From positions 1 to 21,443 of the IMG/VR virus record IMGVR_UViG_3300044675_008556: a stretch of 21,443 bases of DNA; one strand, given 5' to 3'. This DNA is from a virus. The position numbers and the translations under genes are program-made. Below the pieces are notes generated by a model that made no database searches, was not told the origin of the DNA, and worked only from the letters and a program-made list of their open reading frames with translations. This document shows positions 4,027 to 20,585 of this stretch, piece after piece; the first letter of the stretch is position 1, and every line of letters starts with the position of its first letter.

Positions 4027-5295
4027 ATGATCAAATTTAAAGAATTTTTGACAGAAGCCCCCTCAATTGAAGATCAGCTAAAAGCAGCTGAAAGTGTTGT
4101 AAATGACTTAAAAGGTGGTGCATCAAAAACGGAAATTCCTATAGCAAACTCAAATATTGTTGTGGATGCTAAATTAGGCTTTGGTAAATTGCCACCAAAA
4201 ATGGAGGGATCATATAGATCGTTGCCAGCATTATTTGATGTGGTAAAACAATTTGGTCCGGGTGTAAGCAAGTTAAAAGAAAAGATAAGAATTCCTGGTT
4301 CAGAAATTGTAGTAAGTTCAGATATTTCTCCAATTTCTGCAGAAATTGCTGGAGCCCATGAGGGTGGTGGTCACGGCTATCAACAGGGAGCTCAGATGAG
4401 AGATGTGGCCAATCAAAAAAATGTTGATCCGATGAATAGAAAACAAAAGGCACAAGAGACGCAAATTAAAAGAGAGGATATACTTAAACGGAGGGGTGCA
4501 AATATAACGGATTTGCAACGAGCCGAGTATTCTTCTTATAAATTTGACCCACAAGAAGTAAACGCAAGAAGTGTACAGGGTGGACATACTATTATGCGCG
4601 ACTTAAAAAATGTATTGAATAAAGTTGCCAGTCTAGAAACTAGAAATACTATGTCTAGAGATTTGGAATTAAGAAATGCAGCAATGAAATATGGTATGGA
4701 TGTTGCTGGAGTTAATGACAAGACAGGAGAATTGCCTGATTCAGCTACACGGCATCAAAGATCTCAATTGAAGAGACAAAAGATGTTAGCGGATAAAGAT
4801 GCCAGAAGCGCTGTTGCCAGAGGAATACAACAAAGTTTTGTTGATGGTCGCTCTGCGTTTAAAAATTTTGATGAGGTTATTTCGGCTTATAAATCCAAAA
4901 AAAGAAATGAGGAAATACAACAAAGAGTCGAAGCAATGCGGGCTAAACGAGCACAACGGGGACAAGTTCAAACTACTTCATCGGAAATAGCAAAGGGAGC
5001 AAAAGTTGCAAAACCTATATCCGCAGCTGCTCTAAAAGCTTTGCCGGTAATTGGAACTGCAGCATCCATAGCAGCCATGGCACAAAGAGCCCAAGCAGGA
5101 GATTATGTGGGAGCTGGATTGGAAGCGGCATCTGAAGTTGCAGATTATATTCCAGGTGTTGGTACAGCTGCTTCCATGGGAATACAGGGCTATCTTGCAG
5201 ACCGGGATATGAGTGACGAAGAAAGAAAAGAAGCAGAAAAGAAAGCCGCGAGACAGGCTTTAAGGTCGATGAACGTTCACAGCCCAAGATATTGA
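4027..5295 (+). CDS. Putative packaged internal head protein with zincin-like motif
   Basis: A 422-residue protein of unknown function. The N-terminus MIKFKEFLTE-A closely mimics the capsid-targeting leader of T4 internal proteins (MKTYQEFIAE-A), where gp21 cuts after the Glu, so cleavage after Glu10 is predicted. Residues 105-120 contain AHEGGGHGYQQ and residues 171-181 YKFDPQEVNAR. This His-Glu...His plus E-V-x-A-R arrangement resembles zincin metallopeptidase domains in phage polyvalent proteins, but the spacing is HExxxH rather than HExxH. Residues 200-325 are Lys/Arg/Gln-rich helix, 325-392 are Ala/Gly-rich and hydrophobic, and the end is VHSPRY. No Shine-Dalgarno is visible. It is AT-rich beside the reductase gene. 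Confidence 0.75.
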   Translation: MIKFKEFLTEAPSIEDQLKAAESVVNDLKGGASKTEIPIANSNIVVDAKLGFGKLPPKMEGSYRSLPALFDVVKQFGPGVSKLKEKIRIPGSEIVVSSDISPISAEIAGAHEGGGHGYQQGAQMRDVANQKNVDPMNRKQKAQETQIKREDILKRRGANITDLQRAEYSSYKFDPQEVNARSVQGGHTIMRDLKNVLNKVASLETRNTMSRDLELRNAAMKYGMDVAGVNDKTGELPDSATRHQRSQLKRQKMLADKDARSAVARGIQQSFVDGRSAFKNFDEVISAYKSKKRNEEIQQRVEAMRAKRAQRGQVQTTSSEIAKGAKVAKPISAAALKALPVIGTAASIAAMAQRAQAGDYVGAGLEAASEVADYIPGVGTAASMGIQGYLADRDMSDEERKEAEKKAARQALRSMNVHSPRY

Positions 5296-5303
5296 TAAAA
5301 ATA

Positions 5304-5334
5304 AAAATCCTCCCCAACAAAGGGGAGGATTTTT
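5304..5334. terminator. Bidirectional intrinsic terminator between convergent genes
   Basis: AAAATCCTCCCC and GGGGAGGATTTT form a perfect stem around AACAAA, with T-runs at both ends when read in the respective strand. It would stop transcripts from the plus gene ending at 5295 and from the minus gene ending at 5356. Confidence 0.92.
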
Positions 5335-5355
5335 TAATACATTTTAATTTTTTTA

Positions 5356-6474
5356 TTAGGAATTGCCCTGCCAGTAGTATGAAGAATCACCTAATACTAC
5401 GGAATAGTTTCCACTATAATAAATTGGCATCGGGGAGCCTGAAGAAAGGCTTTGGACTGAAAAACCTACTCCTCCGGCAAATCCGGGACTTAGAATACTG
5501 ACATCTGCCGAATCACTGATCGTCATTTTACAAGTAGCACTATTCATGGTTCCCTGTCCTATTCGGCATCCATCGTTTGGTCCTGCTGGGCCAAATTGAA
5601 TGTGACCTGCTTGCATTTGAAGATTTGTAAAATCCGTTCCATGGCCGACATAGACATATGGTCTAGAATTATTACTTCCTTCTGTTATCAATTTTAAAGT
5701 TGTTTGAGTAATTTCTGATGGGCCTGTATCGCCGGTGATACCGAGAGGAACTAGATACAACGATTGTGTAGAATCTCCAGCATATGTTCTCAAGAACATT
5801 GATTTGTCATTTTGAATTGCAAATCCTTTTTGAATATAAATTTGATTTCCTTTACCTTGGAAAATCATATCATTTTGTATCATAGAAGTTGGATCAAAGT
5901 AAAAAGCATCATTAGATGTTGATGCCCATGAATAAACATATCCATCAAAATTATACAAATATATATTTGAGTAAGTTGGGTATGCTGTGGTTATGACTGA
6001 AACATTACCGTAGCCCTTGATGTAATAATTTACACCAGGTGCTTTACTGGATGGATTGATATACCCAAGGACCCCCGAAGTCGGATGTGGTTGCATGTTA
6101 AGATAAACATTGCTATGGGAATTTTCTGCGTGGTAAAGATTTACTGTATCTGCATATACATTCAAATATGTTGTAGCGCCACTAATACCAACATTTAAAG
6201 GAAAGTCTTCGGCAACTTTAATTGATTTTAGATATCTTACTCCAGCAGTTGATGCTGCCGAAGTAGTATTTCCAGTTAAAGTTCCGCTTGGACCAAAAAT
6301 GGGATAATTTAAAGTTCCACCAGAAGACAAAAATTTTACAAACTGGATATCAGATCCCCAAACTGGTTTTGTAGGTGCAGCGGGTGGGCCAGAGGCACCG
6401 CTGGGCCATAGTGTCCAGTTTTGTGGGTCGTTTACGTTAGTGCTTACTGCCCCGCGCCAATAGTATATTGCCAT
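5356..6474 (-). CDS. Beta-rich virion structural protein (fibre/decoration-like)
   Basis: A 372-residue protein beginning MAIYYWRGAVSTNVNDPQNW. This YWRG...NDP-NW opening is typical, as I recall, of surface or fibre-like phage structural proteins in environmental T4-like phages. The rest is rich in Ser/Thr/Gly/Asn/Tyr with alternating beta-strand patterns (YLNVYADTVNLYHA, QIYIQKGF, RPYVYVGHG) and few charged residues, consistent with a beta-helix or stacked beta fold. No enzymatic motif is seen. The ATG follows AAGGA at 6 bases, and a late promoter lies about 22 bases upstream. It is transcribed opposite to its neighbours and ends at a shared terminator. A role on the virion surface is inferred. 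Confidence 0.8.
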   Translation of the reverse strand: MAIYYWRGAVSTNVNDPQNWTLWPSGASGPPAAPTKPVWGSDIQFVKFLSSGGTLNYPIFGPSGTLTGNTTSAASTAGVRYLKSIKVAEDFPLNVGISGATTYLNVYADTVNLYHAENSHSNVYLNMQPHPTSGVLGYINPSSKAPGVNYYIKGYGNVSVITTAYPTYSNIYLYNFDGYVYSWASTSNDAFYFDPTSMIQNDMIFQGKGNQIYIQKGFAIQNDKSMFLRTYAGDSTQSLYLVPLGITGDTGPSEITQTTLKLITEGSNNSRPYVYVGHGTDFTNLQMQAGHIQFGPAGPNDGCRIGQGTMNSATCKMTISDSADVSILSPGFAGGVGFSVQSLSSGSPMPIYYSGNYSVVLGDSSYYWQGNS

Positions 6475-6496
6475 ATGATTTCCTTTTTATTACAAA

Positions 6497-6504
6497 TATT
6501 TATA
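6497..6504 (-). promoter_or_regulatory. T4-type late promoter (TATAAATA) for the fibre-like gene
   Basis: Minus-strand TATAAATA, 22 bases before ATG 6474, leaving room for a short leader with AAGGA. It overlaps a plus-strand octamer in the palindrome AATATTTATAAATATT, forming a divergent promoter pair. Confidence 0.75.
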
Positions 6505-6508
6505 AATA
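6501..6508 (+). promoter_or_regulatory. T4-type late promoter (TATAAATA) reading into a structured non-coding segment
   Basis: Plus-strand TATAAATA overlapping the minus-strand copy at 6497-6504. The predicted start, about 6 bases downstream, falls at G6514, the base of the long stem-loop at 6514-6603. Confidence 0.65.
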
Positions 6509-6513
6509 TTTTA

Positions 6514-6603
6514 GCCAGCGGCGGTGGGGTTGTTCCACGCATTCCTTTTGGGCCAATCGAAGTAAACGCTCATCGTAATGCTCAGGAACCACCGCTGCTG
6601 GCC
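6514..6603 (+). ncRNA. Candidate small structured RNA (about 90 nt single long stem-loop)
   Basis: The segment between two TATAAATA boxes is more GC-rich than its surroundings and folds on itself. Bases 6514-6527 pair with 6589-6602 (14 pairs, one G-U), GTTCC 6532-6536 pairs with GGAAC 6585-6589, and GCATT 6539-6543 pairs with AATGC 6577-6581. The predicted start of the upstream late promoter coincides with the stem base. No start codon or ribosome binding site supports a protein, though one frame is open without a start and ends within the next promoter. It matches no RNA family I recognise. Alternatives are a cruciform DNA site or the remnant of a lost gene. Confidence 0.45.
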
Positions 6604-6607
6604 AAGG

Positions 6608-6615
6608 TATAAATA
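6608..6615 (+). promoter_or_regulatory. T4-type late promoter (TATAAATA) for the RuvC-like gene
   Basis: Exact octamer 12 bases before ATG 6628 and 3 bases before the in-frame ATG 6619. The predicted transcript start is around 6621, giving almost no leader. Confidence 0.65.
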
Positions 6616-6627
6616 TATATGTTCTCC

Positions 6628-7167
6628 ATGTTAGCAGGAATTGACTATTCTATAACCAGCCCAGCAATTTGTCTTTATGACGAGAAGCGAGAGTTTTGCT
6701 TTGCTAATTGCTCATTTTATTTTTTGACCAATACAAAGAAGTATGCCACAAAAATTGCCCCAAATATCAATGGGGAAGGTTTTGAGGAATATGCCTACGA
6801 TACCGAAAGATTTGATACAATTTCAGAATGGGCCACAAATTTATGTGTTGGGGCTGCGGACGTAGCCATCGAAGGATATTCTTACGGTTCTCATGGGCGA
6901 GTTTTCAATCTCGCAGAGAACTGCGGAATCCTGAAATACAAGCTCCATAAGCTCGCCGTTCCCGTGACCATCGTAGAGCCGTCTAAGGTCAAGAAACTCG
7001 CCACGGGCAAGGGAAACGCCGATAAACAGGCAATGTACGATGCCTTCAGCAAAGAAACAAAGACCGATTTAATTTCGGTCTTTGGTCAAAATTCACTGAC
7101 TAATCCTGTTACTGATGTTATAGACAGTTATTATATTTTAAAGGCAATGATGCAGGGTAAGGCTTAA
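6628..7167 (+). CDS. RuvC-like Holliday junction resolvase (RNase H fold)
   Basis: A 179-residue protein with the acidic motifs of the RuvC/RNase H superfamily. LAGIDYSITSPA on strand 1 gives Asp6, DVAIEGYSYG gives Glu82, and the C-terminal helix TDVIDSYYIL provides Asp163/Asp166, preceded by KKLATGKGNADKQAMYDAF, typical of phage RuvC-like enzymes. It probably resolves branched DNA before or during packaging. ATG 6628 is preferred because the conserved strand starts immediately; ATG 6619 would add MFS and lies at the predicted transcript start. No Shine-Dalgarno is seen. Its TAA overlaps the TAA of the convergent gene in a TTAA palindrome. T4 itself uses the unrelated gp49 for this job. Confidence 0.82.
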   Translation: MLAGIDYSITSPAICLYDEKREFCFANCSFYFLTNTKKYATKIAPNINGEGFEEYAYDTERFDTISEWATNLCVGAADVAIEGYSYGSHGRVFNLAENCGILKYKLHKLAVPVTIVEPSKVKKLATGKGNADKQAMYDAFSKETKTDLISVFGQNSLTNPVTDVIDSYYILKAMMQGKA

Positions 7168-7469: not shown

Positions 7470-7470
7470 T

Positions 7471-7998
7471 TTATTTCTTCCTAAAACTAATTAGCATGTT
7501 CTCAAACAAGAATCCATAGGATGGCTCTTTTGGCTTCGATTTGAGATCCATCTTTGCTTCTTTTGGTGTTCGGTTTCCCTTGGCCAAATTGCAGTCTCTG
7601 CATGCAGCAACCATATTGACCCAAGAGGAAGCTCCACCTTTGGATTTTGGAATTACGTGATCCACGGTAGCCTCTTTTGGAGTCATGTCAATACCGCAAT
7701 ACTGACAACAGAAATGATCTCTGCGTAGGATGTTTTGTCTAGAAGGTGCTGCCTTTTTATAAGGCAATTTTACATAGTATTTAAGAATCAAAATTTTAGG
7801 AATTTTGACAATCTTTGATACTGATGCGACTTCATAATATTCGTTGGTTTCATCCCCCCAAACCTTGTCACGGGACATCAATTTATAGGCTTTACTGACG
7901 GTAATGATATTCAGGGGGGTATTGTCTTGATTGAGCAAGAGTACCTGTTTCTTCATACCTTTTAAGTATTTATGAAAATCTAAATATTTTACAGCCAT
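7471..7998 (-). CDS. HNH endonuclease
   Basis: A 175-residue protein of the common HNH class: QVLLLNQDNTPLNIITVSKAYKL at the N-terminus, then RRDHFCCQYCG (Cys98/Cys101), TVDHVIPKSKGG (Asp113-His114), WVNMVAACRDCN (Asn128, Cys133/Cys136, Asn137) and KGNRTPKEA. Cys pairs hold a structural zinc and His114 is the expected catalytic base. It may be a free-standing homing-type or packaging-associated nuclease. ATG 7998 overlaps the divergent start at 7997. An internal ATG at 7956 (MKKQVLLLNQ) lies 10 bases after CATAAATA and begins at the conserved core, so it could be the true late start. Confidence 0.88.
   Translation of the reverse strand: MAVKYLDFHKYLKGMKKQVLLLNQDNTPLNIITVSKAYKLMSRDKVWGDETNEYYEVASVSKIVKIPKILILKYYVKLPYKKAAPSRQNILRRDHFCCQYCGIDMTPKEATVDHVIPKSKGGASSWVNMVAACRDCNLAKGNRTPKEAKMDLKSKPKEPSYGFLFENMLISFRKK
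7967..7974 (-). promoter_or_regulatory. Late-promoter-like CATAAATA upstream of internal HNH start
   Basis: One mismatch to TATAAATA, 10 bases before ATG 7956 on the minus strand with AAAAGG between. It lies inside the longer reading frame, supporting the shorter HNH protein. Confidence 0.4.
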
Positions 7999-9610
7999 GG
8001 ATAATAAACAAGATAGACAATTTTATTGGGAAGTCAAGAACTTTTTAAACAAAAACTCTGAACCAATGGCCCCAAAACCATCTCAGGGAAATTTGAATTC
8101 TGCAGCCAAAACCATAATGGAGCAGAATAATCAATATAAGCAATCAACTTTTAAGCCAAATATTGATAATGACACATCAATCAATAATTTGGTAAATTAT
8201 ATTGCTGCTACCCATAAAAAGGCAGAACCAAGCTCGATAGCACACCAGAAGACAGCACACATCAATCCATTTGGAATGATCTCCGAAAGTATTTTTGGAC
8301 AAGCAGCAAGTGCAGCCAAAAAACTTAGTTCGGCTGCAATGGCTTCGGCAAACCCTTCTTTAAACATTAATGCAAGAAATGCACAATCCAATGCTCAAGC
8401 GCAGATGCCCGGTCCAATAGGAATACCATCAGCATCTTCGTCTACAGGAAGTCCATCGACGCCAGGGGCACCACCGATGGTGATTGGTGGCGTCCCCGGA
8501 GGTCCCGGTGGTCCTGCACTACCAGCTTCCGTTACTTCATCTACGGCATCAGGCGCTTCACCAAGTGATGCAAGCGACGCAGATCTAATTGATAATCTAA
8601 GAAGCGCCAGAGGAATGCCAAAAGGAGATAGAGGTGGAATTGGAAATAAAGGTAGAGGTGAATCGGAACGTGCTGCAAATCGGGCAGATAGAGCTGCTAG
8701 AAATGAAGCCTTGAAGACCGCTGGCATTGCTGCAACACGCCGAAGAGAAGAAAACAGAGACGAAGAAAAAAGAACGAGAGAAGAAGCAAAAGAAGCACAA
8801 AAAGCTCTTGATGCAGCACAAAAAGCAAAGGAAGCCACAAGAAGAGAGGAAGCCGGTCCAACTCCAGATGGCTCTCCTGCAGTAAGTTATGGTGCACAAG
8901 AATCAAAAGCATATGATGAGGCTCAAAGATCATATCAGGATGCACAAAAAGCTGCCAAAGAAGCAAAAGAAAAAGCAAGAACTTTTAATGAAAGAAGTGG
9001 TTACAACCAACCAAGTCCACAGTTTGGAAACTCCACTCCAGCAGACATTGCATTGAGATATAAAGCAAAAGCTGAAGAAAATGCATTGCCGTTTGACGAT
9101 AGACCTATTTCTCCATTTTATAGAATGACACGCAATCAGTTTAGAGCAGCAACTGGTCGTGATTTTGATGCATCTGGTGGATCTGTAGAAGCAAACATGA
9201 GAACTCTTGTAAACAACCAGACAAATCTTGCTGGAAGACTTAGAGAAAATGATGCAATTCAGCAAGCTAATGCAATCCATGCTGCTCAAATGAAAGCTAT
9301 GGATGAAAATATGGATCTGTTTAGACGTGCTCAACGCGGAGATGCTGCAGCAGCAGATGAGTTCCTGAGAATCATGAATGATGCGAAAGAGAAAGCAAAA
9401 CGAGAAAATCCAAGAAGAAACTGGACAGTTAGTGATTTTGATGTACCGCCAACTCAAAACCCAATAGACAACAGAGATCCATACCCAAATAATGCTCTCA
9501 GAACAAATGTTTATGACCCGGCGTATAAAGAGAATACAGGGACAACAAACCAAGGTAATAGTCCCAGAAGAGCTACAAATAGAAGAGAGCGTGAAGGGCT
9601 AAATCCGTGA
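7997..9610 (+). CDS. Low-complexity, coiled-coil late protein (probable virion/internal protein)
   Basis: A 537-residue protein I do not recognise. Residues 1-100 are mixed (MDNKQDRQFYWEVKNFLNK...); 100-130 are Ala/Ser-rich; 138-192 are Pro/Gly/Ser-rich with a collagen-like stretch around GGVPGGPGGPALP; 222-330 are highly charged Ala/Glu/Arg/Lys helix likely to form a coiled coil (KEAQKALDAAQKAKEATRR); 330-537 are polar with Asn/Arg/Pro. No signal peptide or membrane segment. Such composition fits a scaffold, core or packed protein. The ATG overlaps the divergent HNH start in CCATGG, so its promoter must lie inside that gene; TCTAAATA at 7979-7986 is a late-like candidate. Its TGA overlaps the next GTG start. 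Confidence 0.75.
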   Translation: MDNKQDRQFYWEVKNFLNKNSEPMAPKPSQGNLNSAAKTIMEQNNQYKQSTFKPNIDNDTSINNLVNYIAATHKKAEPSSIAHQKTAHINPFGMISESIFGQAASAAKKLSSAAMASANPSLNINARNAQSNAQAQMPGPIGIPSASSSTGSPSTPGAPPMVIGGVPGGPGGPALPASVTSSTASGASPSDASDADLIDNLRSARGMPKGDRGGIGNKGRGESERAANRADRAARNEALKTAGIAATRRREENRDEEKRTREEAKEAQKALDAAQKAKEATRREEAGPTPDGSPAVSYGAQESKAYDEAQRSYQDAQKAAKEAKEKARTFNERSGYNQPSPQFGNSTPADIALRYKAKAEENALPFDDRPISPFYRMTRNQFRAATGRDFDASGGSVEANMRTLVNNQTNLAGRLRENDAIQQANAIHAAQMKAMDENMDLFRRAQRGDAAAADEFLRIMNDAKEKAKRENPRRNWTVSDFDVPPTQNPIDNRDPYPNNALRTNVYDPAYKENTGTTNQGNSPRRATNRREREGLNP

Positions 9611-10539
9611 GTCTAATCTCAAACCTTTATAAGAACAAGGCCAGAGATCTTCATGAACAAGTAAAAAAACTTGAGCATGAATTAAAAATGCTGGAAGAGG
9701 GTGTTGTTCCTCCACCCCCTCCACCGTTTTTTAGTGCAAAAGATGTTGCAAAAGAATTTACCACCTTTCCAGCTACAGCTGCAACAGGTAGAGCAATTGC
9801 TACCGGAGCAAAGGCAACGGCTTCTGCAGTAGCACATCCAGTAGAAACCACAAGACAAGCAGTAGGCGCAGCAAAGGAAGCAGCATCAAAAGCAACCGGT
9901 GCTGTGGCCGATGCAATCAAAAATCCAGGTCCTGCAGCCGCAGCATTAGCACAAAAGGCCGGAAGCGCAGCCCAGACAACTGCTATGCTCGGTGGTGCAA
10001 TTGCATTACCTCTGGGTGCTGGAATGCTGGCAAGAACTGCCGTAGACCTTCCCATGGCAGCAGCGGGGTTTGAGGAAACTAATCCATTTGCGGGTGAAAT
10101 GCCAGCCGTAAGAAATATTGCAACAGATGCCGCAGATTGGGCAGCAATGACAGCAACCAGTCAACTTATTGGAAATGTTCTTGCTGGTGCTCCTCTTTCT
10201 TCTGGAGTGGGATCAGCTGCCGTCGCAGGTGGAATTGCGGGGGCATTAGTTCCCGTTGTATCTTATGGAGGTTATAAAGCTGGAGAAGCAATCGGTTCTA
10301 TGAAACTCCCGGAATTTGCTGGTGGCGAAAGCATCCATAGCAATATTTCTGATGTTGTTCAAGCTTGGCAAGAATCGGGTCTCAAGACCGCTGGCATGGA
10401 AAAATCCGATTATCCCAGCACAGAAGAACTTGCACAAGAATCAAAATCAGAAAGAGAAAAAAAAGAACGATCTGAAGCAATGGCAAGACAACGTATGAGA
10501 GATGCACAATACGATCCGGTGCACAGACCTAAGTATTGA
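9607..10539 (+). CDS. Ala/Gly-rich membrane-active-looking late protein
   Basis: A 310-residue protein, GTG start inside the previous stop (GTGA), with GAAGGG about 10 bases upstream. Residues 10-31 form a short coiled coil ending KMLE-E, a possible prohead-protease site, followed by a run of six prolines (35-40). Residues 50-120 are Ala/Lys/Thr amphipathic helix. Residues 123-155 and 176-222 are hydrophobic and Gly/Ala-rich (MLGGAIALPLGAGMLA; AGGIAGALVPVVSYGGY), like transmembrane or glycine-zipper segments. The charged C-terminus ends DPVHRPKY, echoing VHSPRY at the end of the protein ending at 5295. A role in DNA ejection or membrane penetration is inferred from composition only. Confidence 0.72.
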   Translation: MSLISNLYKNKARDLHEQVKKLEHELKMLEEGVVPPPPPPFFSAKDVAKEFTTFPATAATGRAIATGAKATASAVAHPVETTRQAVGAAKEAASKATGAVADAIKNPGPAAAALAQKAGSAAQTTAMLGGAIALPLGAGMLARTAVDLPMAAAGFEETNPFAGEMPAVRNIATDAADWAAMTATSQLIGNVLAGAPLSSGVGSAAVAGGIAGALVPVVSYGGYKAGEAIGSMKLPEFAGGESIHSNISDVVQAWQESGLKTAGMEKSDYPSTEELAQESKSEREKKERSEAMARQRMRDAQYDPVHRPKY

Positions 10540-10555: not shown

Positions 10556-11665
10556 ATGAAAAATTATCTAACAGAACATATTCTGGAATATCGTTATAAG
10601 ACCAACGCATATATTGCTTTACTTTGCGAAAGTCATTACTTTGATCCTCATATTTCTGATTTTTGCCGTGAAGATATTTTAAAAAGAATTACAGAGTTAA
10701 GTAACGCTGTATGTGAGGGTCGAGTACACTATCCACACGCTTTGGTAAAAAAATACCATTTACATGAGCAAGTTCCAGGTGTATCAAGTTCCATAAGTAA
10801 AGCACTAAAAGCAGTTGAAGCAGCTAAAGTAGCGAGAGAAGCAAAAGCAGCAGCGGAGGCAGCAGAAGTAGCAAAGGCAACAGCAAAAGCAGCAGAAGCA
10901 GCTACAAAAACCACAGAAGCAACTAAACCTGTGCGTCCAGCTATTTTACCGGCTCAATCTGGAGTTCAGCCTATAACTCCAATAAGAGGTCAGGCACTCG
11001 AAGCACAGGCTATGGATTATATTCAGATGCAGGCAATACAACATGCACAACAAGGTTTGAGGGGAGAAGATCTTGCAAATGTTGTTAGAGAAACATTAAA
11101 AAATAATCCAAAATTTGCAGAACTCGGTCAAAATGCAGAGAGAGTTGAAAAAAGTGCAGAACAAATTCTTAAAAACGCTGAAGAGACTGCAAATAAAATT
11201 GCAAAAGGCGAACAAATAAGTGGTATATCGACTTGGGAATATGGCGGTACACGTTTAACCCCAGAAGAAGGAAATTTTTCAAGAGAAGATATACTTACAA
11301 TGGGTGCATCTTTGCGGGGATCTAGATCATCTCTGGAGAACCAGAGGAGAAATGCACTAATAGATCTTCAAGCCGAACCTAGAGTAAATTGGCAAGGGAG
11401 CGAAGGATTGCCTCAAACTGAAATTCGCAGCTACATTGATGCAGCAGAACGAGAAGCACTAAAAACACGTAAAGCGGGAGAAGAAGCTTTACGTCGTATC
11501 GCACCAGAAAGTGAAAATGTATCAAATAAGGTTAAAGACTTGGTTTATGAGCTTAATCGAAGAAAAGCTCAAGGTGAAGTTTTTACACCGGAAGAACAGC
11601 AGTCATATCAAAAGATGTTGGATGATTTGAAAAAACTTAGAGAAACCCAAAATGCCAGTAAATAA
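10556..11665 (+). CDS. Ala/Glu/Lys-rich late protein, paralogue of the next gene
   Basis: A 369-residue protein of unknown function. ATG 10556 is chosen because its sequence aligns with the start of the next gene: EYRYKTNAYIALLCES here and EYRYETNAYIALLVES there. Residues 1-75 form that conserved head; 80-125 are Ala/Lys/Glu helix; 145-215 form a second shared block (AMDYIQMQAIQHAQQGLRGEDL; AEQILKNAE); 225-369 are unique charged helix. The leader contains several hydrophobic-x-Glu sites (LTE7, ILE11, LCE25) that a gp21-type protease could cut. It ends 14 bases inside the next gene, suggesting coupled translation and origin by tandem duplication. Confidence 0.75.
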   Translation: MKNYLTEHILEYRYKTNAYIALLCESHYFDPHISDFCREDILKRITELSNAVCEGRVHYPHALVKKYHLHEQVPGVSSSISKALKAVEAAKVAREAKAAAEAAEVAKATAKAAEAATKTTEATKPVRPAILPAQSGVQPITPIRGQALEAQAMDYIQMQAIQHAQQGLRGEDLANVVRETLKNNPKFAELGQNAERVEKSAEQILKNAEETANKIAKGEQISGISTWEYGGTRLTPEEGNFSREDILTMGASLRGSRSSLENQRRNALIDLQAEPRVNWQGSEGLPQTEIRSYIDAAEREALKTRKAGEEALRRIAPESENVSNKVKDLVYELNRRKAQGEVFTPEEQQSYQKMLDDLKKLRETQNASK

Positions 11666-13127
11666 TATAGTAAAGTATATACTAGAATATCGTTACGAAA
11701 CAAATGCATATATTGCATTGTTGGTAGAAAGTGGTTACTTTGATTCTTCAATATCCAAAGATTTAAGAAAAAATATTTTAAATAATGTTATTTTAGAAAC
11801 TCAAAAAGTTATTTTAGGTAAATCTACTTATCCAAAAATAAAACATAAAAATTTATTTGAATCCTCTGGAGTTTTGGGAGCTGTATCAAAAGCAACAGAA
11901 GCAGCAAAGGCTGCAGCAGAAGCAGCAAAGGCAGCAGAAGCAGCAAAGGCAGCAGCAGAAGCAGCAAAAGCAGCAAAAGCAGCAAAAGCTGGAACAGCAG
12001 CCAGAGAAGCAGCTGCCGTTGAGCGCGGTTTGGGCACTGCAGCAAAACCACTAATACCTCCGTCAAGAGTATTTCCTGGTGAAATTGTTTTAGCAACCAA
12101 AGGTGCACCAACAGCAAAATTTACTGCCGATACTGCCAAGTTTAGAGCACAGGATATTCTAGATTATGTCCAGTATAAAGCACTGGAATATAGTGGTCAG
12201 GGTTTACAAGGACAGGAATTGCGTGATATAATTAAAGAAACACTCAAATCACATCCAGCTTTGACTCAAATAAATTATGAGCCTGAGTTAATGCGAGAGC
12301 TAGAGATGGTTGAAGATGCTGCAGAGCAAATTATAAAAAATGCAGAGCAAATTGCATCAAAATACAGTCAAGGTCAACAGATGCTTCCTGATGAAATATC
12401 AAGAAGTATTTCCCAACAAGGAATAATGACACCTGAAGAGTTTGCTGCTTATCAGGAAAGAATTGCTAAGGCAACACAACCAAAAACTCCACCTTCCATT
12501 GAACCAGCACCGGCAGAGATTAGTCCACCGGAATCACCTAAAGTCACTCCAAAACCAGATTATACTCCTTGGACACCAAAGCCTGCAGAACCACCTGTTA
12601 CTACACCAAAGCCTGCAGAACCACCTAAAGCTCCAGAGCCAAGCACACCTAAAGCTCCAGAGCCAAGCACACCTAAAGCTCCAGAGCCAAGCACACCTAA
12701 AGCTCCAGAGCCAAGCACACCTAAAGCTCCAGAGCCAAGTACTCCACCAAATCCGAACCCCAATCCGAATCCGAATCCGAACCCCAATCCGAATCCGAAC
12801 CCCAATCCGAATCCGAACCCCAATCCGAATCCGAACCCCAATCCGAATCCGAACCCCAATCCGAATCCGAATCCGAACCCCAATCCGAATCCTAATACTC
12901 CACCTCCTTCAAAAATACCACCACCACCTCCACCAAATGCTTCTGCACCACCACCATCAGGTAAAGAAGAAAAACCAGAAGAGGGAGGATTCAAATTCTG
13001 GTGGCCATTCGGTGCCGGATCTGTTGAAAGCTCCGCATACACTGAAAAGGGTGCAAGCACCGAGATTGATCTTGCTCTAGGACAACAGGCAATGGGTAAG
13101 TTTGCTACCAGACAAGTTTGGAGATAA
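11652..13127 (+). CDS. Repeat-rich late protein with (EAAKA)n, (KAPEPSTP)5 and (PN)25 tracts
   Basis: A 491-residue paralogue of the preceding protein. Residues 1-75 and 150-235 match it (YETNAYIALLVESGYFD; DILDYVQYKALEYSGQGLQG). Between them, residues 79-115 are nearly pure Ala/Lys/Glu helix repeats. The C-terminal third is a disordered proline stalk: two TPKPAEPP units, five KAPEPSTP units, 25 Pro-Asn dipeptides and a polyproline run, capped by a distinct globular-looking end (GFKFWWPFGAG...ATRQVWR). Such rods usually act as spacers between folded ends. Leader sites ILE11 and LVE26 fit prohead-protease cutting. Phage-internal placement is inferred. No close family is recognised. Confidence 0.78.
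   Translation: MPVNNIVKYILEYRYETNAYIALLVESGYFDSSISKDLRKNILNNVILETQKVILGKSTYPKIKHKNLFESSGVLGAVSKATEAAKAAAEAAKAAEAAKAAAEAAKAAKAAKAGTAAREAAAVERGLGTAAKPLIPPSRVFPGEIVLATKGAPTAKFTADTAKFRAQDILDYVQYKALEYSGQGLQGQELRDIIKETLKSHPALTQINYEPELMRELEMVEDAAEQIIKNAEQIASKYSQGQQMLPDEISRSISQQGIMTPEEFAAYQERIAKATQPKTPPSIEPAPAEISPPESPKVTPKPDYTPWTPKPAEPPVTTPKPAEPPKAPEPSTPKAPEPSTPKAPEPSTPKAPEPSTPKAPEPSTPPNPNPNPNPNPNPNPNPNPNPNPNPNPNPNPNPNPNPNPNPNPNPNPNPNTPPPSKIPPPPPPNASAPPPSGKEEKPEEGGFKFWWPFGAGSVESSAYTEKGASTEIDLALGQQAMGKFATRQVWR
11886..11996 (+). repeat. Ala-Lys-Glu helix repeat (coding)
   Basis: Degenerate repeats of gcagcaaaggcagcagaa encode (AAKAAEAAKAAA)-type helix in the gene starting at 11652. A shorter, more diverged version lies in the upstream paralogue at about 10795-10930. 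Confidence 0.9.
12624..12743 (+). repeat. Five direct 24-bp repeats encoding KAPEPSTP
   Basis: Five tandem 24-base units starting CCTAAAGCTCCAGAGCCAAG, in frame. The first four are identical and the last ends AGTACT instead of AGCACA. Near-identity points to recent expansion by slippage or recombination. Confidence 0.95.
12747..12896 (+). repeat. 25 hexamer units encoding (Pro-Asn)25
   Basis: 150 bases of CCN-AAY hexamers, organised mostly as an 18-base higher-order unit AATCCGAATCCGAACCCC. It is in frame within the gene starting at 11652 and flanked by proline-rich sequence on both sides. Confidence 0.95.
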
Positions 13128-14436: not shown

Positions 14437-16812
14437 ATGAACTTTAAGAATCTTTTAGATAAAATTAATAATGTATTTGTTCTTCTAGAGGCCCCAGAGG
14501 GCCCCGGTACTGCCACCAAAAAAGAGGCAGCAAAGGCTTCCAGCACCAGCGATAAGGCCAAGGATGCTGCCAGAAAGCGCGTAGAGCGCTCCAGAGAAAC
14601 CCCAAGGGAAAGAAAACCAAAGCAAGAACTAATCAAAGATGTTGTTCTGGTAAAAACCCGTTCTGGTACCATTCAATTAATTTTTAAAGATTCTTTCAAC
14701 GGAAGCCAGCATGAAAAGCTTAATAAAGATGTTCTGACAATTGAAGAAGCGCAGCGCGTTCTCAAAGATGAAAAATTTGAGCAAACCAGAGCATCCAAGC
14801 TTCTCTTCGGAAATGTAAAAGAAAAAGAAAAAGTAGGCAGAGAGAAGTCTACCAAAAAAGAGGAAGAAGAAGCACGCCGGGAAGCAAAGCCAAAGACCGA
14901 AGAGGAAAAGGTCAAGGAAGAAAAGCGCAAGGCAACCAAGCTCAGTAAAGAACAGGTTATGCAGACCATGACTCAGATGACACCTGAGCAGCTGGCCGCA
15001 ATGCCACCTGACATTCGGAATGAGTATTTCCGAATGATAAGAAAGCCCCCTGCAAATACAGACTTCGACAAGATGTCTTATGAAAATCTTACGGTTGCTT
15101 TCGGTCTCAGCAATACCAGCGGAACTCCATATAATCAACAAGTTCTCAATGCACTGATCTTCCTAGCAAAGCTCAAGGCCGGTGCAAGTGAACAAGAGGT
15201 ACAAACCTATCTTGCCTTGGCTCCTGAAGGAAGAGAATTCACAAGAGCCGCATTCTTCACCGCAAAGAAAGTCTTGTCTCAGATCGGTGACCAATGCATT
15301 CAAAATCTCGTAACGAATATCGAGACCACAGGTAAGCCGGTAAATGCCGAAGGTGCAGCCGACATGGAATGTGGCGCATATAAATTCAAAGTTTCTGCAG
15401 GAGGTGAAATCTCACTTTCAACTACGGACTTCGATCAGTCGAATAAGCAGTTCAAAGGATATATTGCATCTGCTCTCTCTAATGCATTGCGAAATCCGCA
15501 ACTGATCGCCAGCGATGCAAAACTTTCTTCAGAATTCCAAACCATGCAAAAGGGAATGGAAGCCTTCTCTGACATCCTTGTTCCCGACAATCTATTGCCG
15601 GAAATCAAAAACGATCCAAAGCTTCTACAGAAGCTTCAGAGCATGCCAATCAAGGATGCATCTGGAAAAGTAGTTGGCACCGTAATTGATGCAGATGGAA
15701 ACTTGAACGATTTGGCTTCTGCTTCGCGTTATCAAAAGGGCTGGGAAGAAAGTGCCAAAGCCTTTATGAAAGGTGGAACCAAGTCAAATGCATTGAAGAA
15801 AGAGGTCATCAACGGAATCTTGAAGACCGTTCTTCGTGGCGATGGAATCACCGACCCAGAGATGGCTCCCAATCATCTTATAACAGTCAACGGAATAATG
15901 CCGATGACCGATGATTATTTTGCAACCATTTCGCAGAATTCAAATCTTGATGTAAAGCCATCCAAGGATGTAATGACTTCCAGCAACATTTCCAAATATA
16001 AGCCTTCATCGGCTGAAATGTTTAAAAAGTATACCACAGTCGTAGAAGCCACAGAAGAACAAGAAAAACCATCTTTGGAGGCCATGTTAATCAAGAAGGA
16101 CAGCATAGATCCCTACAATTACATGGTTAACTACATTGTCAAGAACAATGACTTCCTATTGAATGCCAGTTTGTTGCCAGGGTTCAGTACAGCAGATCTG
16201 AACTCTGTTCAGTACAACTACGTTACAATCGGAAAGAAGACAATAAAGATTCCCGTAATGAAGGGAGAAAACATAAGCAATGAGGTATTGAGCGAAGGAA
16301 TCATTGCAATCAATGATCTCCTTCTGGAATCTCTCTCCAATAACTTTGTTCTTTCTTCTCTTGTCGGACGTGGATTGGTTACTCCATCCGAAGCCTCCAT
16401 CCTGCTGGACGGGGAAACTTTGCTCACAGAGAATGCGGAATACGTGTATATCAATCTGCAATCGATCTTCGAGAGAGCTGTCGAAAGATATGCCGAGAAC
16501 CACGCAATCCTGGACTTGATCTTCGAGGATATTCTTGAAGAAAAGTACAAGAGAGATTACAAAATGGAATACCGCAATTACCACGGTAAGCCAAAGCAAA
16601 GAAAAGAACGAGCCGCCAGAACCGCTGCACGTGAGCTGATGATCAAGAAGGGTAAGGTCAAGAAAGGCGATGGCAAGGACATTGACCATAAAAAGCCTCT
16701 CCGTCACGGTGGATCAAAAGGTATAAATAATTTACGTGTAAGAAAAAAGTCAGAGAATAGATCTGACAATGGCCACCGCAAAGGTGAAAAACAGAACAAG
16801 GATTGGAAATGA
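14437..16812 (+). CDS. Large late protein with capsid-targeting-like leader and C-terminal HNH motif
   Basis: A 791-residue protein. The leader MNFKNLLDKINNVFVLLE-A resembles that of the gene at 17967 (MKFKNLLNKITN) and ends in a hydrophobic-x-Glu site (Glu18) before Ala, as in T4 packed proteins. Residues 20-190 are Lys/Glu/Arg-rich and probably disordered or coiled; 200-690 look globular with no known motif; 695-791 are strongly basic with DIDHKKPLRHGGSKGINNL (Asp750-His751, Asn764/765) and SENRS (Asn774), the D-H...N...N pattern of an HNH/His-Me nuclease without zinc Cys. ATG 14437 is preferred over TTG 14431, although GGAG abuts it with no spacer. Packaging in the head is inferred. Confidence 0.78.
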   Translation: MNFKNLLDKINNVFVLLEAPEGPGTATKKEAAKASSTSDKAKDAARKRVERSRETPRERKPKQELIKDVVLVKTRSGTIQLIFKDSFNGSQHEKLNKDVLTIEEAQRVLKDEKFEQTRASKLLFGNVKEKEKVGREKSTKKEEEEARREAKPKTEEEKVKEEKRKATKLSKEQVMQTMTQMTPEQLAAMPPDIRNEYFRMIRKPPANTDFDKMSYENLTVAFGLSNTSGTPYNQQVLNALIFLAKLKAGASEQEVQTYLALAPEGREFTRAAFFTAKKVLSQIGDQCIQNLVTNIETTGKPVNAEGAADMECGAYKFKVSAGGEISLSTTDFDQSNKQFKGYIASALSNALRNPQLIASDAKLSSEFQTMQKGMEAFSDILVPDNLLPEIKNDPKLLQKLQSMPIKDASGKVVGTVIDADGNLNDLASASRYQKGWEESAKAFMKGGTKSNALKKEVINGILKTVLRGDGITDPEMAPNHLITVNGIMPMTDDYFATISQNSNLDVKPSKDVMTSSNISKYKPSSAEMFKKYTTVVEATEEQEKPSLEAMLIKKDSIDPYNYMVNYIVKNNDFLLNASLLPGFSTADLNSVQYNYVTIGKKTIKIPVMKGENISNEVLSEGIIAINDLLLESLSNNFVLSSLVGRGLVTPSEASILLDGETLLTENAEYVYINLQSIFERAVERYAENHAILDLIFEDILEEKYKRDYKMEYRNYHGKPKQRKERAARTAARELMIKKGKVKKGDGKDIDHKKPLRHGGSKGINNLRVRKKSENRSDNGHRKGEKQNKDWK
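16722..16729 (+). promoter_or_regulatory. TATAAATA inside the HNH domain, possible late promoter for downstream genes
   Basis: An exact late octamer 79 bases before ATG 16809, spelled by the Gly-Ile-Asn-Asn codons of the HNH motif. It may be functional or a coding coincidence. Confidence 0.35.
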
Positions 16813-17957
16813 GCTCAGAAAACGTCGAAGTAATACTTGAAAAAGTATATGCAAACTCAGGGCTTGGCAAATGGTTCAACAAGGAATCTGCTGGCGGTGG
16901 TCCAGGATGGGATCGCTATAATACCAAGGGTGAGCGCGTAGGAAAGTGCGGAGACGCAGACGAGGGAGATTCTTATTCTGCATGCCTGAGCAAACAGAAG
17001 GCAAAAAAGCTAGGAAAAGAGAAGATAGCCAGCTTTGTCCGCCGCAAAAGAGTAGCCCAGAAAAAAGCAGGTAGAGGCAAAAAAGGATCTGTTGAAGGTA
17101 AGGGAAAGAAGCCGGTATATGTAAAAACCGGTGTTACTGAATTAAAAGAATGTTTTGAGCACTTCATCGTGGAGAGCATGAATGTCGTTCCAAGTCTTCC
17201 ATTCGTAAGCATCGAAGCCAGAGAACTGCTTCCATGCGATCTTGTAATAAATGAATCTGGTGAAATTTTTAATGTAGACATGGTTGAAATATATGAAGGC
17301 TCTTATTACGTAAGCTTTACAAACAGTGAAGGTTGCCCAATATACGAAGTCTTTACTCCAGACACAATAATGGGATTTGTCGATGTAACTGAGGGTGAAG
17401 AGACAAATGAGTACGGTGATCTTGTAGGCATTTACGAAGAGACCAATAAAAAGGTCAAGCTAAACAAGATCATGAAAGGCGATGTAAAGAAGTACAAAGT
17501 CTACGTCAAGAATGATAAGGGTAATGTCGTCAAGGTAAACTTTGGCGATCCAAACATGGAAATCAAGCGTGATGATCCTGATCGCAGACGCAATTTCCGT
17601 GCTCGTCATAATTGCGATAATCCAGGACCGAGATGGAAAGCTCGCTACTGGGCATGCAAGACCTGGAGCACGCAATCTGTAACTTCCATGTTGAAAGAAA
17701 ACAGCGACCTCCAAGAGGGAAGCAAAAATGAGCCAAAGGACAAGGCTCGATGGAATTCGTGCATTCAACAAGCCAAGAATAAATTTGATGTCTATCCTTC
17801 CGCCTACGCCAACGCATGGGCATCCAAGTGCTATAAGAGCAAGGGTGGAAAATGGAAAAAAGTATCAGAATCGATAGAGACTTCGATTCTAAAACAAATC
17901 AACGAAAGAACCTATAACCCAGATCTATATGGGATGGTAAGCAGACACGCTAAATAA
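16809..17957 (+). CDS. Three-module basic late protein of unknown function
   Basis: A 382-residue protein starting at ATG in an ATGA overlap with the previous stop. Module 1 (residues 21-83) contains GPGWDRYNTKGERVGKCG and YSACLSKQKAKKL. Module 2 (217-285) contains KYKVYVKNDKGNVVKVNFGD and RARHNCDNPGPRWKARYWACK. Module 3 (303-351) contains KFDVYPSAYANAWASKCYK. As I recall, all three motifs recur as small basic domains in large phage and giant-virus genomes, often in virion-related proteins, but no activity is established. Cys and His in modules 1 and 2 could bind zinc. Residues 130-195 form a beta-rich insert. VILE11 is a possible protease site. Confidence 0.78.
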   Translation: MSSENVEVILEKVYANSGLGKWFNKESAGGGPGWDRYNTKGERVGKCGDADEGDSYSACLSKQKAKKLGKEKIASFVRRKRVAQKKAGRGKKGSVEGKGKKPVYVKTGVTELKECFEHFIVESMNVVPSLPFVSIEARELLPCDLVINESGEIFNVDMVEIYEGSYYVSFTNSEGCPIYEVFTPDTIMGFVDVTEGEETNEYGDLVGIYEETNKKVKLNKIMKGDVKKYKVYVKNDKGNVVKVNFGDPNMEIKRDDPDRRRNFRARHNCDNPGPRWKARYWACKTWSTQSVTSMLKENSDLQEGSKNEPKDKARWNSCIQQAKNKFDVYPSAYANAWASKCYKSKGGKWKKVSESIETSILKQINERTYNPDLYGMVSRHAK

Positions 17958-17966
17958 AGGACAGCC

Positions 17967-18524
17967 ATGAAATTTAAAAATTTACTCAACAAAATAACCA
18001 ATTTGGCCGAAGAAGCAGGCGAACATACCATGGGAGGCGGTCTCTATATCGGAGATCCACAAGCACCAAAGGGCCCATCTACAGTAACAGACAAGGGTAC
18101 ATTCAATCTTGGAATGGCTCGCCATATCGACGCGATCAACGCCATGCTCTACAGTTTCAGTGGCCGGGACTACATTGAACCAGACAGCATGGTCGCTGTC
18201 GTCAAGCAAAAATTAAATCTTTATGGTCTTGACTTTGCTCAACCAAAGCAACCACTTACCGATGGCTTGAACACCTTTGAGCTAGTACAATACGGAAGCC
18301 CTCAATTGGGCGTATATGGCCAAAACCCATATGAGGACGTAAATGTAAAGGGCTTCAAGCAAGGCGATGGCATCAAGGAAAAAATTGGGCACTCACTTGC
18401 ACTGAACATCGACATCGTAAAGCAGCCAAATCATCTACGTAAAATGATCATGGTTATCGCTCCAACAGCTACATCTTCATATAACCAAGATCTACCAGCC
18501 AATGATTGTGGATGCCAGCACTGA
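17967..18524 (+). CDS. Late protein with capsid-targeting-like leader, function unknown
   Basis: A 185-residue protein. Its leader MKFKNLLNKITNLAE-E matches the start of the 14437 gene, and LAE15 is a likely prohead-protease site. The rest contains no recognised motif: TMGGGLYIGDPQAP, then a helical stretch (NLGMARHIDAINAMLYSF), a region with Tyr/Gly/Pro, and a Cys-rich end (NDCGCQH). The ATG lies 9 bases after AAAGGA, and CTAAATA overlaps the preceding stop. Absence of Lys/Glu low complexity separates it from the 14437 product despite the shared leader, as expected if the leader is a transferable targeting tag. Confidence 0.75.
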   Translation: MKFKNLLNKITNLAEEAGEHTMGGGLYIGDPQAPKGPSTVTDKGTFNLGMARHIDAINAMLYSFSGRDYIEPDSMVAVVKQKLNLYGLDFAQPKQPLTDGLNTFELVQYGSPQLGVYGQNPYEDVNVKGFKQGDGIKEKIGHSLALNIDIVKQPNHLRKMIMVIAPTATSSYNQDLPANDCGCQH

Positions 18525-18531
18525 TACCTGC

Positions 18532-18930
18532 ATGCTAGATAAAAGCAAACCATTGACAGAAGAAAACTTTATTTTATTCTGTCAGAGTTGCTATTTCAAC
18601 AGCGAATGCTCCGGGAAAAACGAATTTATCGATGATTTGAAGAGAATAAAGTACGTAAAGCGTCTTCTTCAAAAGATTCACAAACACAAGACTCTCAAGT
18701 CAATTCGAGAGCGTTTGATCATCAATCACATCATAATACTGAAAAATGTTTTTGGTGAGCACAATACAGCTCGAATTTTATTTTTCAAGGTAGAACCAAA
18801 ACTGTATTCGTATCTAAAGTCGTTTACAGTATTTTTAAATTTTGACATCAAAGATCTGCCTGAAGTAAAATATTCGGAGTTGAACACTGATCCAAGGGTG
18901 GACCGCAAACTGGCCCAAACAGAACAATGA
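18532..18930 (+). CDS. Conserved T4-like phage protein of unknown function
   Basis: A 132-residue protein. MLDKSKPLTEENFILFC, RIKYVKRLLQKI, RERLIINHIIILKNVFGEHNTARILFFKVE and LKSFTVFLNF fit a small helical protein that I recall as conserved in T4-like phages of cyanobacteria and relatives, usually among structural genes. No catalytic motif. ATG 18532 begins at the conserved part; ATG 18502 would overlap the preceding gene by 23 bases and add ten residues. It overlaps the next start as ATGA. Confidence 0.8.
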   Translation: MLDKSKPLTEENFILFCQSCYFNSECSGKNEFIDDLKRIKYVKRLLQKIHKHKTLKSIRERLIINHIIILKNVFGEHNTARILFFKVEPKLYSYLKSFTVFLNFDIKDLPEVKYSELNTDPRVDRKLAQTEQ

Positions 18931-20585
18931 ACAGCTTACAATACATTCCCTCCTTTTATTTTAATAGATTTGCACAAGCAATCTCGGAACCATATACCAA
19001 TACACAAGCATACCGGTCCGGTGTAATTGATGCAAGCGGGAATGTAATGAAGCCGGAGAGCAGCATAGATCCATTTGAATACTTTGTCATCAAACTAAAG
19101 AAGATATTCGATGAACTGCCTTCCGGAATGACCAAAGCACAACTGAACAATTATCTCACTACGATGAAGTTGTTCTCGGAATCAATTGAGTATTTCGGTG
19201 TCACCAAAGACGAATACATTGGCCTCATGGAAGGCTACTTGGCCCAAGCAGGATACCCAGAAGCATCCTTGGTCGAACTTAATGAGGATATGGGAGCAGG
19301 AGGTATGGCCGTTGCTGGGTCTTCGCCGGGATACAATACCGGTGGAGTTTCTGGATACGATCCTCCGATGGGAAAGACACAAAAAAGGGTTGAACCAGTC
19401 TTAAAAGGTCTTGACGCCTGTGATATATTTGATGTATGTCCAGAGGAACTAAAGTCATTTCAGAGTGCTACCAAATGGGGAGATCTGGAAGACGGGGAAA
19501 ATACTCGTTATCTCAGACGATATGCGTTGAGAAATCCAAACAAGAAGCTTGCAGTAAGATCAGTTGATCCCGATACAGGCAAATCAACTGTTCACTGGTT
19601 AAATTTTAAACCAACAAGATTAAAAGAAGAATTTATGAATGACTGTGCCTCTTTGCTAGAGGATACAGAACGTCAAATTTTTTCAACAATATTATCTAAA
19701 AATTTAGATGCTGTTCAACAAACTGGAGCTGATACGGCAATAAAAAGTGGAAAGAAACTCACTAGGGGTCAAGTAGAGGCCGTAGTTGGACTTGAAGGAC
19801 TTATCTCCTCAGCCGCAGATTTTAAAAGTGCCCCTGATAAAGTTCGAGCAAAATTTTTAGATCTTGCAGCAAAGACATCAGAAAAAGGTGGGGTATCAGA
19901 CACCTCGCCAATTGATGCTGTATTCCTAAAAGGAACCGAGATAGTCGGAACTGATGTAAAAATGGGAACTGCTACCAATCCAATTAGATTGGATACTTTG
20001 GATCTTACACCTCCAGAGGAAGCCTCTCCTGAAAGATTTTGGAAGGCAAAACAAGAACAAGAAGCTATAGTAAAAGATATTGGTACCAGAACAGCTACCA
20101 GAGCAGAAAGTAAAAAATTAGAAGAGCTGGAATCACAAAAAGTGGCGATTAGGTCTGCAGCAAAAAACTGGTCTAGCACAGCTGAAGTACAAGAAAAAAT
20201 GCGTACCGGATTGGGTGCTGCAGTATTAGAAAAAGGCTTGCCAATAACTTTGGCTATTCCGGGTACAACTAGAAATTTTGGTGGTCTGCAAAGACATGTC
20301 ATTGGCGCAGAACAAATTGCCGGGCATATTCAAACAGAACCAGCTAGAGTTGTTTACGGAACCGAAGGAGAAAAGCTGAAAGGCGGTGTCAGAAGACACG
20401 AACCTCAAGTTTTGTCGAGGGAGCTTGCCAGATCCAAACGTGGATTTGATAGACTGGCTGCGAATGTAGGAAAAGATAACATGGCTCTCATGGGCCGAAC
20501 TGACGAAGACGAGAGTGCATGGCCAGATTTATTTGGTGAAGAGCCGTTGGCCAGATTATATAAGATTCTTCGCGGAGAAAATTAA
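18927..20585 (+). CDS. Virion-type protein with possible C-terminal PD-(D/E)XK nuclease module
   Basis: A 552-residue protein. Residues 1-115 are helical and look conserved (SSIDPFEYFVIKLKKIFDEL, KAQLNNYLTTMKLFSES), followed by a Gly-rich linker (121-148) and a compact segment to about 230. From about residue 240 the coding sequence becomes visibly more AT-rich. Residues 300-365 contain SPIDAVFLKGTEIVGTDVKMG: Asp330 and the Asp343-x-Lys345 pair fit the P-D...(D/E)-x-K core of restriction-like nucleases. Residues 366-440 are charged helix, and the end is basic. The first half is likely a structural or packaged part and the second an exchanged payload; both are inferred. It ends at a strong terminator. 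Confidence 0.78.
   Translation: MNSLQYIPSFYFNRFAQAISEPYTNTQAYRSGVIDASGNVMKPESSIDPFEYFVIKLKKIFDELPSGMTKAQLNNYLTTMKLFSESIEYFGVTKDEYIGLMEGYLAQAGYPEASLVELNEDMGAGGMAVAGSSPGYNTGGVSGYDPPMGKTQKRVEPVLKGLDACDIFDVCPEELKSFQSATKWGDLEDGENTRYLRRYALRNPNKKLAVRSVDPDTGKSTVHWLNFKPTRLKEEFMNDCASLLEDTERQIFSTILSKNLDAVQQTGADTAIKSGKKLTRGQVEAVVGLEGLISSAADFKSAPDKVRAKFLDLAAKTSEKGGVSDTSPIDAVFLKGTEIVGTDVKMGTATNPIRLDTLDLTPPEEASPERFWKAKQEQEAIVKDIGTRTATRAESKKLEELESQKVAIRSAAKNWSSTAEVQEKMRTGLGAAVLEKGLPITLAIPGTTRNFGGLQRHVIGAEQIAGHIQTEPARVVYGTEGEKLKGGVRRHEPQVLSRELARSKRGFDRLAANVGKDNMALMGRTDEDESAWPDLFGEEPLARLYKILRGEN

Follow-up and report, generated by a model that had tools for sequence, protein, structure and literature searches.

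Known head-packaged proteins and the locus under study

The internal proteins (IPs) IPI-III and the Alt protein of phage T4 start with a short leader ending in L/I-x-E and are served by a prohead protease of the S77 family; several of them, with variable mature bodies, are encoded per genome (PMC9026906, PMC12373910). The T4 protease, gp21, is specific for L/I-x-E and cleaves after the Glu, and the idea that such leaders allow T4-like phages to load varied proteins has already been published (PMC9026906). Leaders of this form were found in a 21,443-base IMG/VR virus fragment (the window), in which positions 4027-20585 hold a run of large late-type genes. We consider this run, with a probability of about 0.6, to be a head-cargo module from a phage of the T4 superfamily, whose proteins would enter the prohead by way of leaders, propeptides or a carrier that mimics the capsid-protein arm, would be released by an S77 protease, and would be injected, nuclease payloads among them. 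An earlier reading of the window, made from the letters alone (the sequence-only reading), had proposed an arsenal of injected proteins with IP-like leaders and exchangeable payloads. The leaders, the exchangeable cargo and a protease in the relatives uphold that proposal in part; 16809 as a simple leader-bearing cargo protein and a zincin in the window were not supported. Proteins are named below by the start coordinate of their genes, which lie on the plus strand unless stated otherwise; relative loci gathered from IMG/VR are labelled L###, and counts refer to distinct sequences.

Compared with the T4 set, the window has two more types of propeptide, internal cut sites that frame modules, and a carrier with a mimic of the capsid-protein arm. 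Its payloads are predicted to be nucleases, whereas the T4 proteins are small inhibitors, and packaging is here deduced from sequence. The carrier belongs to the gp61.1 family (phrog_2086, phrog_18642, phrog_1823), with which it shares a homologous N-terminal domain, the arm and a conserved cut site; the known members compared have 54-163 amino acids (aa) and stop shortly behind the arm, whereas the window clade adds a payload in 60 of 72 homologues. The nearest functional analogue, from another family, is formed by the MuF polymorphic toxins, which likewise have exchangeable effectors at the C-terminus of a conserved, head-associated N-terminal part (PMC5576092). These are found in temperate phages, whereas the window derives from a T4-type phage with no sign of lysogeny in the genes read; moreover, release would here depend on prohead-protease sites and no adjacent exchanged immunity gene was seen. 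Pfam gave no match to the MuF domain for the whole 18927 protein. Finally, the polyvalent proteins resemble the window proteins in being large late proteins with nuclease-type domains that are thought to be packaged and injected (PMC5512222), but the domains typical of them were not found by Pfam in ten cargo proteins of relatives, for which the scan gave no usable matches at all, and the modules seem separable by cut sites. As far as our searches went, three points are new: the gp61.1 carrier that mimics the capsid arm, the polymorphic payload and second cut site that go with this carrier, and the use of site depletion to test for cargo of the head.

IP-type leaders and the prohead protease

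A strict rule for leaders, M-x(1,3)-[FY][KRQN]-x-[FYLIM][LIVM] followed by L/I-x-E ending at residues 8-20, selects exactly three of the 21 window proteins: 4027 (MIKFKEFLTE|AP, nucleotides (nt) 4027-4056), 14437 (MNFKNLLDKINNVFVLLE|AP, up to Glu18, nt 14437-14490) and 17967 (MKFKNLLNKITNLAE|EA, up to Glu15, nt 17967-18011). Shuffling of the first 40 residues gave a mean of 0.009 such leaders, and three or more were obtained in none of 2000 shuffles. In G001 and G002, two relatives with lengths of 136 and 137 kb that have most of their gene order in common with the window, the same rule finds eight and two leaders, respectively, against 0.07 expected. The three leaders lie where the sequence-only reading had placed them, and the alignment of N-termini that it had proposed shows that two of them are conserved. 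For the 17967 protein, IMG/VR yielded 67 relatives of 56-72% identity, in which leader and body are both conserved: Glu-15 and L/I/V-13 are present in 37 of 37 distinct N-termini, with residues 12 and 14 variable. In the 14437 protein, encoded in 65 of the 67 loci collected as 17967 relatives, [LIVM]xE is retained in all 38 distinct N-termini despite a leader length of 11, 12 or 18 residues. This pattern of conservation is a match, at the level of sequence, to the published specificity of T4 gp21. The weaker leaders that had been suggested at 9607, 10556, 11652 and 16809 do not follow the rule and are not of the IP type.

Besides these, G001 contains four adjacent small genes (6193-8081) with typical T4-IP leaders, MKKFKTFLYE, MKKFKEFLRE, MKSFKEFLRE and MKSFKNFLIE, and one more gene with such a leader at 133286.

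No S77 protease was found in the 21-kb window, a fragment too short for this search, and the relatives were examined for that reason. Both G001 and G002 encode a Peptidase_S77 protein (PF03420; E-values 3e-39 and 7e-40), and the gene adjoins those for the capsid protein, a probable scaffold and a probable portal, the latter two being named by position and size alone. The sequence-only reading had cited a missing gp21 homologue as a possible objection to itself; since a gp21-type protease is encoded in the relatives, this objection does not apply. The major capsid protein of G001 and G002 is of the T4 superfamily, with approximately 53% identity to gp23 of cyanophages and others, and at the gp23 cut position the clade has HLYE|DMGG or HLVE|DMGS. 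The putative gp22-like scaffold contains 13-14 L/I-x-E sites where 4.4-5.3 are expected, an excess in keeping with a protein that undergoes cleavage into many fragments.

A gp61.1-type carrier with a mimic of the capsid-protein arm

The clearest payload exchange was observed in the main component, overlooked by the sequence-only reading: the 552-aa protein encoded at 18927..20585, which has no N-terminal leader. It starts with a gp61.1-like prodomain (18927..19286; phrog_2086/phrog_18642) ending in LVELNE| (Glu120, nt 19284-19286), and its N-terminal domain matches phrog_2086 with an E-value of 2.5e-7 over aa 7-150. Both phrogs are common to the proteins of Acj9, Aeh1 and phiM12, and phrog_2086 also to gp61.1 of T4. 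The relationship is further supported by a tblastn match to Sinorhizobium phage phiM12 (5e-5) and by gene context: in phiM12 the gene preceding the gp61.1 homologue is a homologue of the conserved window gene 18502..18930, a partner of 18927 that belongs to phrog_407 by sequence.

The prodomain is followed by a stretch that resembles the N-terminal arm of the capsid protein (aa 121-167, 19287..19427). Residues 117-167 align with the phage's own capsid protein at 43% and 42% identity (E-values 7e-8 and 4e-6), such that LNE|DMGAGG..GYNTGGVSGYDP..KR of 18927 stands against LVE|DMGSG..GYNTAAVSGYDP..RR of the capsid protein. An E-D-[MT] cut site is present in all 53 of the distinct homologues first collected. 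Likewise, T4 gp61.1 reads MKTFKEFIKE|DMVAGDSGGNPENISIGTTSGAVVNKGP, in which an IP-type leader precedes a copy of the gp23 arm. When gp61.1 proteins were scored by local alignment against the capsid arms of twelve phages, those of the window clade reached 77-110 with the arms of their own clade and 32-52 with T4-like arms (for 18927 itself, 96-110 and 37-48), T4-like gp61.1 proteins fitted best to T4-like arms, and gp61.1 of phiM12 to the phiM12 arm. As the scores track each of the three lineages, the mimicry follows the capsid protein of the lineage itself. This imitation would serve the incorporation of the protein into the head. A 141-aa open reading frame of Aeromonas phage Aeh1 (L171, around 109725-109832) matches aa 80-117 of the clade capsid protein and is possibly a second arm-mimic protein.

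The family was matched in 1444 INPHARED records, and our literature searches found no virion proteomics naming gp61.1. Its wide occurrence in the T4 superfamily, together with the payload-less short forms found in T4 and in 12 of 72 homologues in the clade, would also suit a structural or morphogenetic head protein, such as an arm-mimicking assembly factor or an adaptor at the vertex or portal, whose C-terminal domains are surface or assembly modules. We regard this as improbable, for the cut site at the junction described below would detach the C-terminal domain, and both a nuclease-like motif and diversity throughout the payload classes would be odd in an assembly part. Under a reading of the family as polymorphic effectors, T4 gp61.1 would be a payload-less form, either ancestral or reduced. 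A widespread T4 gene without explanation would thus become a testable head protein with a predicted cut at Glu10|Asp11, the product of which would begin with DMVAGDSGGNPENISIG.

Payload exchange and the placement of cut sites

The carrier comprises approximately 236 residues and is followed in 60 of the 72 homologues by a C-terminal domain, mostly of 260-390 residues (that of L010 is cut by the contig end). In the window the exchangeable payload extends over 19662..20582. The carriers of L001, L002 and L037 are 98.7-99.6% identical, whereas their payloads have no BLAST similarity; at the DNA level, flanks of approximately 96% identity run up to the end of the carrier and resume at the payload stop codon, with nothing alignable in between. 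Clean swaps of this kind were found in nine pairs, and L050 and L048 form a pair that differs in the presence or absence of the payload. The exchangeable payloads of the sequence-only reading were thus recovered, behind a carrier as well as in the 4027 slot described below. A toxin-immunity pair was considered for 18927 and rejected: the sequences align again from the stop codon or close to it, so that the exchange includes no neighbouring immunity gene.

The junction itself carries a second site that resembles those of the prohead protease, SLLE|D in the window (Glu245, nt 19659-19661) and typically LDILNE| in the homologues. An L/I-x-E occurs in the 12 residues that directly follow the carrier in 85% of 55 distinct payload-bearing homologues, compared to 0-13% for other stretches of 12 residues. 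Within the payloads the motif is scarce. In 26 mutually dissimilar payloads 36 [LI]xE were counted where 74.8 were expected, and none of 300 shuffles gave a number as low; the control motifs [LI]xD, Ex[LI], [LI]xQ, [VF]xE, [LI]E and [LI]xxE showed no depletion. Such depletion is as expected if the payloads meet the protease. Similarly, T4 IPI, IPII and IPIII have the leader site and no further [LI]xE.

Depletion extends to the proteins with longer propeptides. The observed/expected ratio is 0.22 in the bodies of type B (9607) and 0.50 in those of type C (10556 and 11652), compared to 1.09-1.13 for all other G001/G002 proteins, with the reservation that the z-scores of both types overstate independence because the sequences within each type are related. 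In the bodies of the 4027 type the depletion has P=0.057. The simplest reading is that the depleted or framed modules meet an L/I-x-E protease and are freed by it, and the earlier proposal of gp21-type cleavage is strengthened by the depletion in cargo and by the sites at module borders. Depletion is absent from the whole 14437 protein, from type A (7997) and from 17967, which counts against their being cargo, and the case for these three therefore rests on leader and site placement. That all of these would be ordinary late genes, with leaders and sites as relics or chance and no cargo system, is a view for which one may cite that L-x-E is in general a short and common motif; we give it very little credence, because leader statistics, depletion with its motif controls, junction placement and the co-variation of the arms are all far from chance. 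As cut-site depletion here sets several types of cargo apart from other proteins of the phage, it may be used to seek head-packaged proteins wherever the specificity of a prohead protease is known.

What the payloads may be

Each payload class was aligned separately (classes are labelled A2, A5-A9 etc.). In the class of the window payload (11 sequences, 16-27% identical to the window) the invariant or nearly invariant residues are three Asp, Lys109 and Pro209, which include the motif D-x(12)-D-x-K (PIDAVFLKGTEIVGTDVK); the candidate catalytic residues are Asp (nt 19914-19916), Asp (19953-19955) and Lys (19959-19961). Other classes have PD...(D/E)xK plus a Glu in an upstream helix. Profile-profile alignment links A2, A5, A6 and A7 at 88-97%, with only 10% between A6 and A7, and in the linked classes the Lys is exactly in register and the Asp within 3 residues. 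The links are not general noise, as control alignments of the payload profiles with the phage's own PD-(D/E)XK exonuclease, with HNH, RuvC and other families all remained below 0.5% probability; by the same token, these controls link the payloads to no known nuclease. In AlphaFold2 models the window payload (predicted local distance difference test score, pLDDT, 79) has both motif parts on a beta hairpin, and the L001 payload (pLDDT 64) shows a helix, three strands, a helix and a strand around the motif, so that the order of elements in an alpha-beta-beta-beta-alpha-beta core fits the L001 model but only partly that of the window.

The payloads are probably PD-(D/E)XK nucleases, as motif and model suggest. 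Several results weigh against this assignment. Foldseek searches of the two models against the PDB, and of one against BFVD, gave nothing significant, Pfam and PHROG scans of ten payloads gave no usable match, and PDB profile searches with two payload families likewise found nothing; the assignment therefore rests on motif, conservation and topology. As a pattern, D..[DE]xK by itself is weak, being present in 47 of 60 payloads against 23 in shuffled sequences, and in 17 of 53 other phage proteins, and detection by this expression only was rejected as too permissive. In addition, the Lys is missing from class A8 and from part of A9, and L030 and L050 have no clear acidic residue two positions before it; A8 and the Lys-less part of A9 may be inactive or different.

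Such losses would be more natural if the payloads, although packaged and processed, were not active nucleases but decoys or binding domains, which would block defence enzymes of the host and diversify with their targets. By analogy with the T4 proteins, of which Ip1-3 each inhibit a distinct GmrSD subtype, one by one (PMC12373910), a role directed at defence is the main alternative, and payload swaps without an adjacent immunity gene would agree with it. It nevertheless seems unlikely to us, for in most classes D and K are among the few residues that stay invariant at low identity, which fits catalysis better.

On the reading as a head-cargo module, cargo would enter the prohead by three routes: short leaders (4027, 14437 and 17967), longer propeptides (9607, 10556 and 11652), and a gp61.1-type carrier that imitates the capsid-protein arm of its own phage (18927). 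Cuts by the S77 prohead protease after L/I-x-E, at leader and module borders, would then free two enzymes among the packaged DNA, the 14437 HNH module and the 18927 payload, to be injected with the genome at infection. The 18927 payload, probably a nuclease of the PD-(D/E)XK type, would be swapped as a cassette at the 3' end of its gene, and its target may be resident or competing nucleic acid (non-self or host) or a defence. More specifically, the gp61.1 family would in this clade provide polymorphic effectors that enter the prohead by copying capsid arm and cut site, and from which an exchangeable nuclease is cut free for strain-specific injection; for this stronger proposal we put the chances somewhat below even. 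If it holds, the capsid of a T4-type lineage may serve to deliver effectors that are probably nucleolytic and are rapidly exchanged, and the phage head would be a delivery vehicle with a swappable weapon.

Further candidate cargo proteins of the window

The 4027 slot (4027..5295, 422 aa) lies between the genes for the reductase and a RuvC-like protein and holds different cargo in relatives. Behind the leader the body is variable, and a Gly/Ala-rich hydrophobic module at the C-terminus (about aa 324-396) is conserved and also found in cyanophage proteins. In L135-L137 leader and C-terminus match the 4027 protein (63-77% identity), but the middle does not. The zincin-like domain that had been assigned to 4027 was rejected, as the string is HEGGGH and not HExxH. 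A true HExxH is found in leader-bearing proteins of G001, with HEGQH in the protein of the 4027 slot; the two proteins at 42287-44185 and 128195-129082 of that genome, with HEGQH and HELQH, are possible packaged metalloproteases, zincin-like by motif only. The leader-bearing cargo in the slot of L135 (4305-5396) starts with FYHKTDPGTAARLVSGEKIKPQGLSVFIDPAKAAEY and resembles an N-terminus of the ADP-ribosyltransferase type (cf. T4 Alt), for which family the Pfam scan gave no match.

The 14437 protein (14437..16812, 791 aa) has a large middle, a cluster of L/I-x-E at aa 620-702 and then a putative C-terminal HNH module (nt 16543-16800). Among 36 relatives the 32 residues upstream of this module contain a mean of 2.67 L/I-x-E, and its tail of 77 aa is free of them. 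The HNH domain, already noticed in the sequence-only reading, is backed by a match of the C-terminus to phrog_4590 (unnamed; 6.5e-21) with the motif DIDHKKPLRHGGSKGINNLRV, and one tblastn match overlaps with an annotated endonuclease gene of a phage; Pfam gave no match for this module. In L066 the gene is broken into several open frames, which could reflect decay of this copy or an error of sequencing or assembly.

The adjacent 16809 (16809..17957, 382 aa) encodes a basic modular protein with a DUF5754-like stretch. Its 10 L/I-x-E sites, against 2.7 expected, are spread along the protein, comparable to the putative gp22-like scaffold, and the protein is therefore probably a multiply cut core protein rather than an IP, the pieces of which would be basic and perhaps DNA-binding. 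Most of the sites fall between the basic modules (about aa 12-113, 211-296 and 304-365), which are gained and lost in relatives. It is followed by 17967 (17967..18524), the conserved leader protein of 185 aa.

Upstream, the type A protein (7997..9610, 537 aa) has a conserved N-terminus, MDNKQDRQFYWEVK, and a variable body. In the comparison of relatives two more kinds of conserved N-terminus emerge, each in front of a variable body. Type B (9607..10539) has a coiled-coil-like propeptide ending in KMLEE| (Glu31, nt 9697-9699) and an Ala-rich body. Type C is represented by two paralogues, 10556..11665, with a propeptide of approximately 71 residues containing 5 L/I-x-E sites (to Glu71) and a body nearly free of sites, and 11652..13127, with a propeptide to Glu70.

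Other genes of the window encode a primase, ThyX, a ribonucleotide reductase, a tRNA-Asn, and RuvC-like, HNH and PD-(D/E)XK exonuclease proteins. A 372-aa gene on the minus strand (5356-6474) adjoins the variable 4027 slot and has no PHROG match and no relative in G001 or G002. In a scan of genome contigs, one binned contig of a Chitinophagaceae metagenome-assembled genome matched, which we do not accept as evidence for the host. The proteins of types B and C share short common C-terminal tails, with PKY/PKF-like or DLxL..A.GKYSRYLR-like ends, around their variable bodies, and both ends of these proteins may be targeting or processing signals. Finally, the 11652 protein contains a long Asn-Pro repeat (NPNPNP...) at about 12750-12930.

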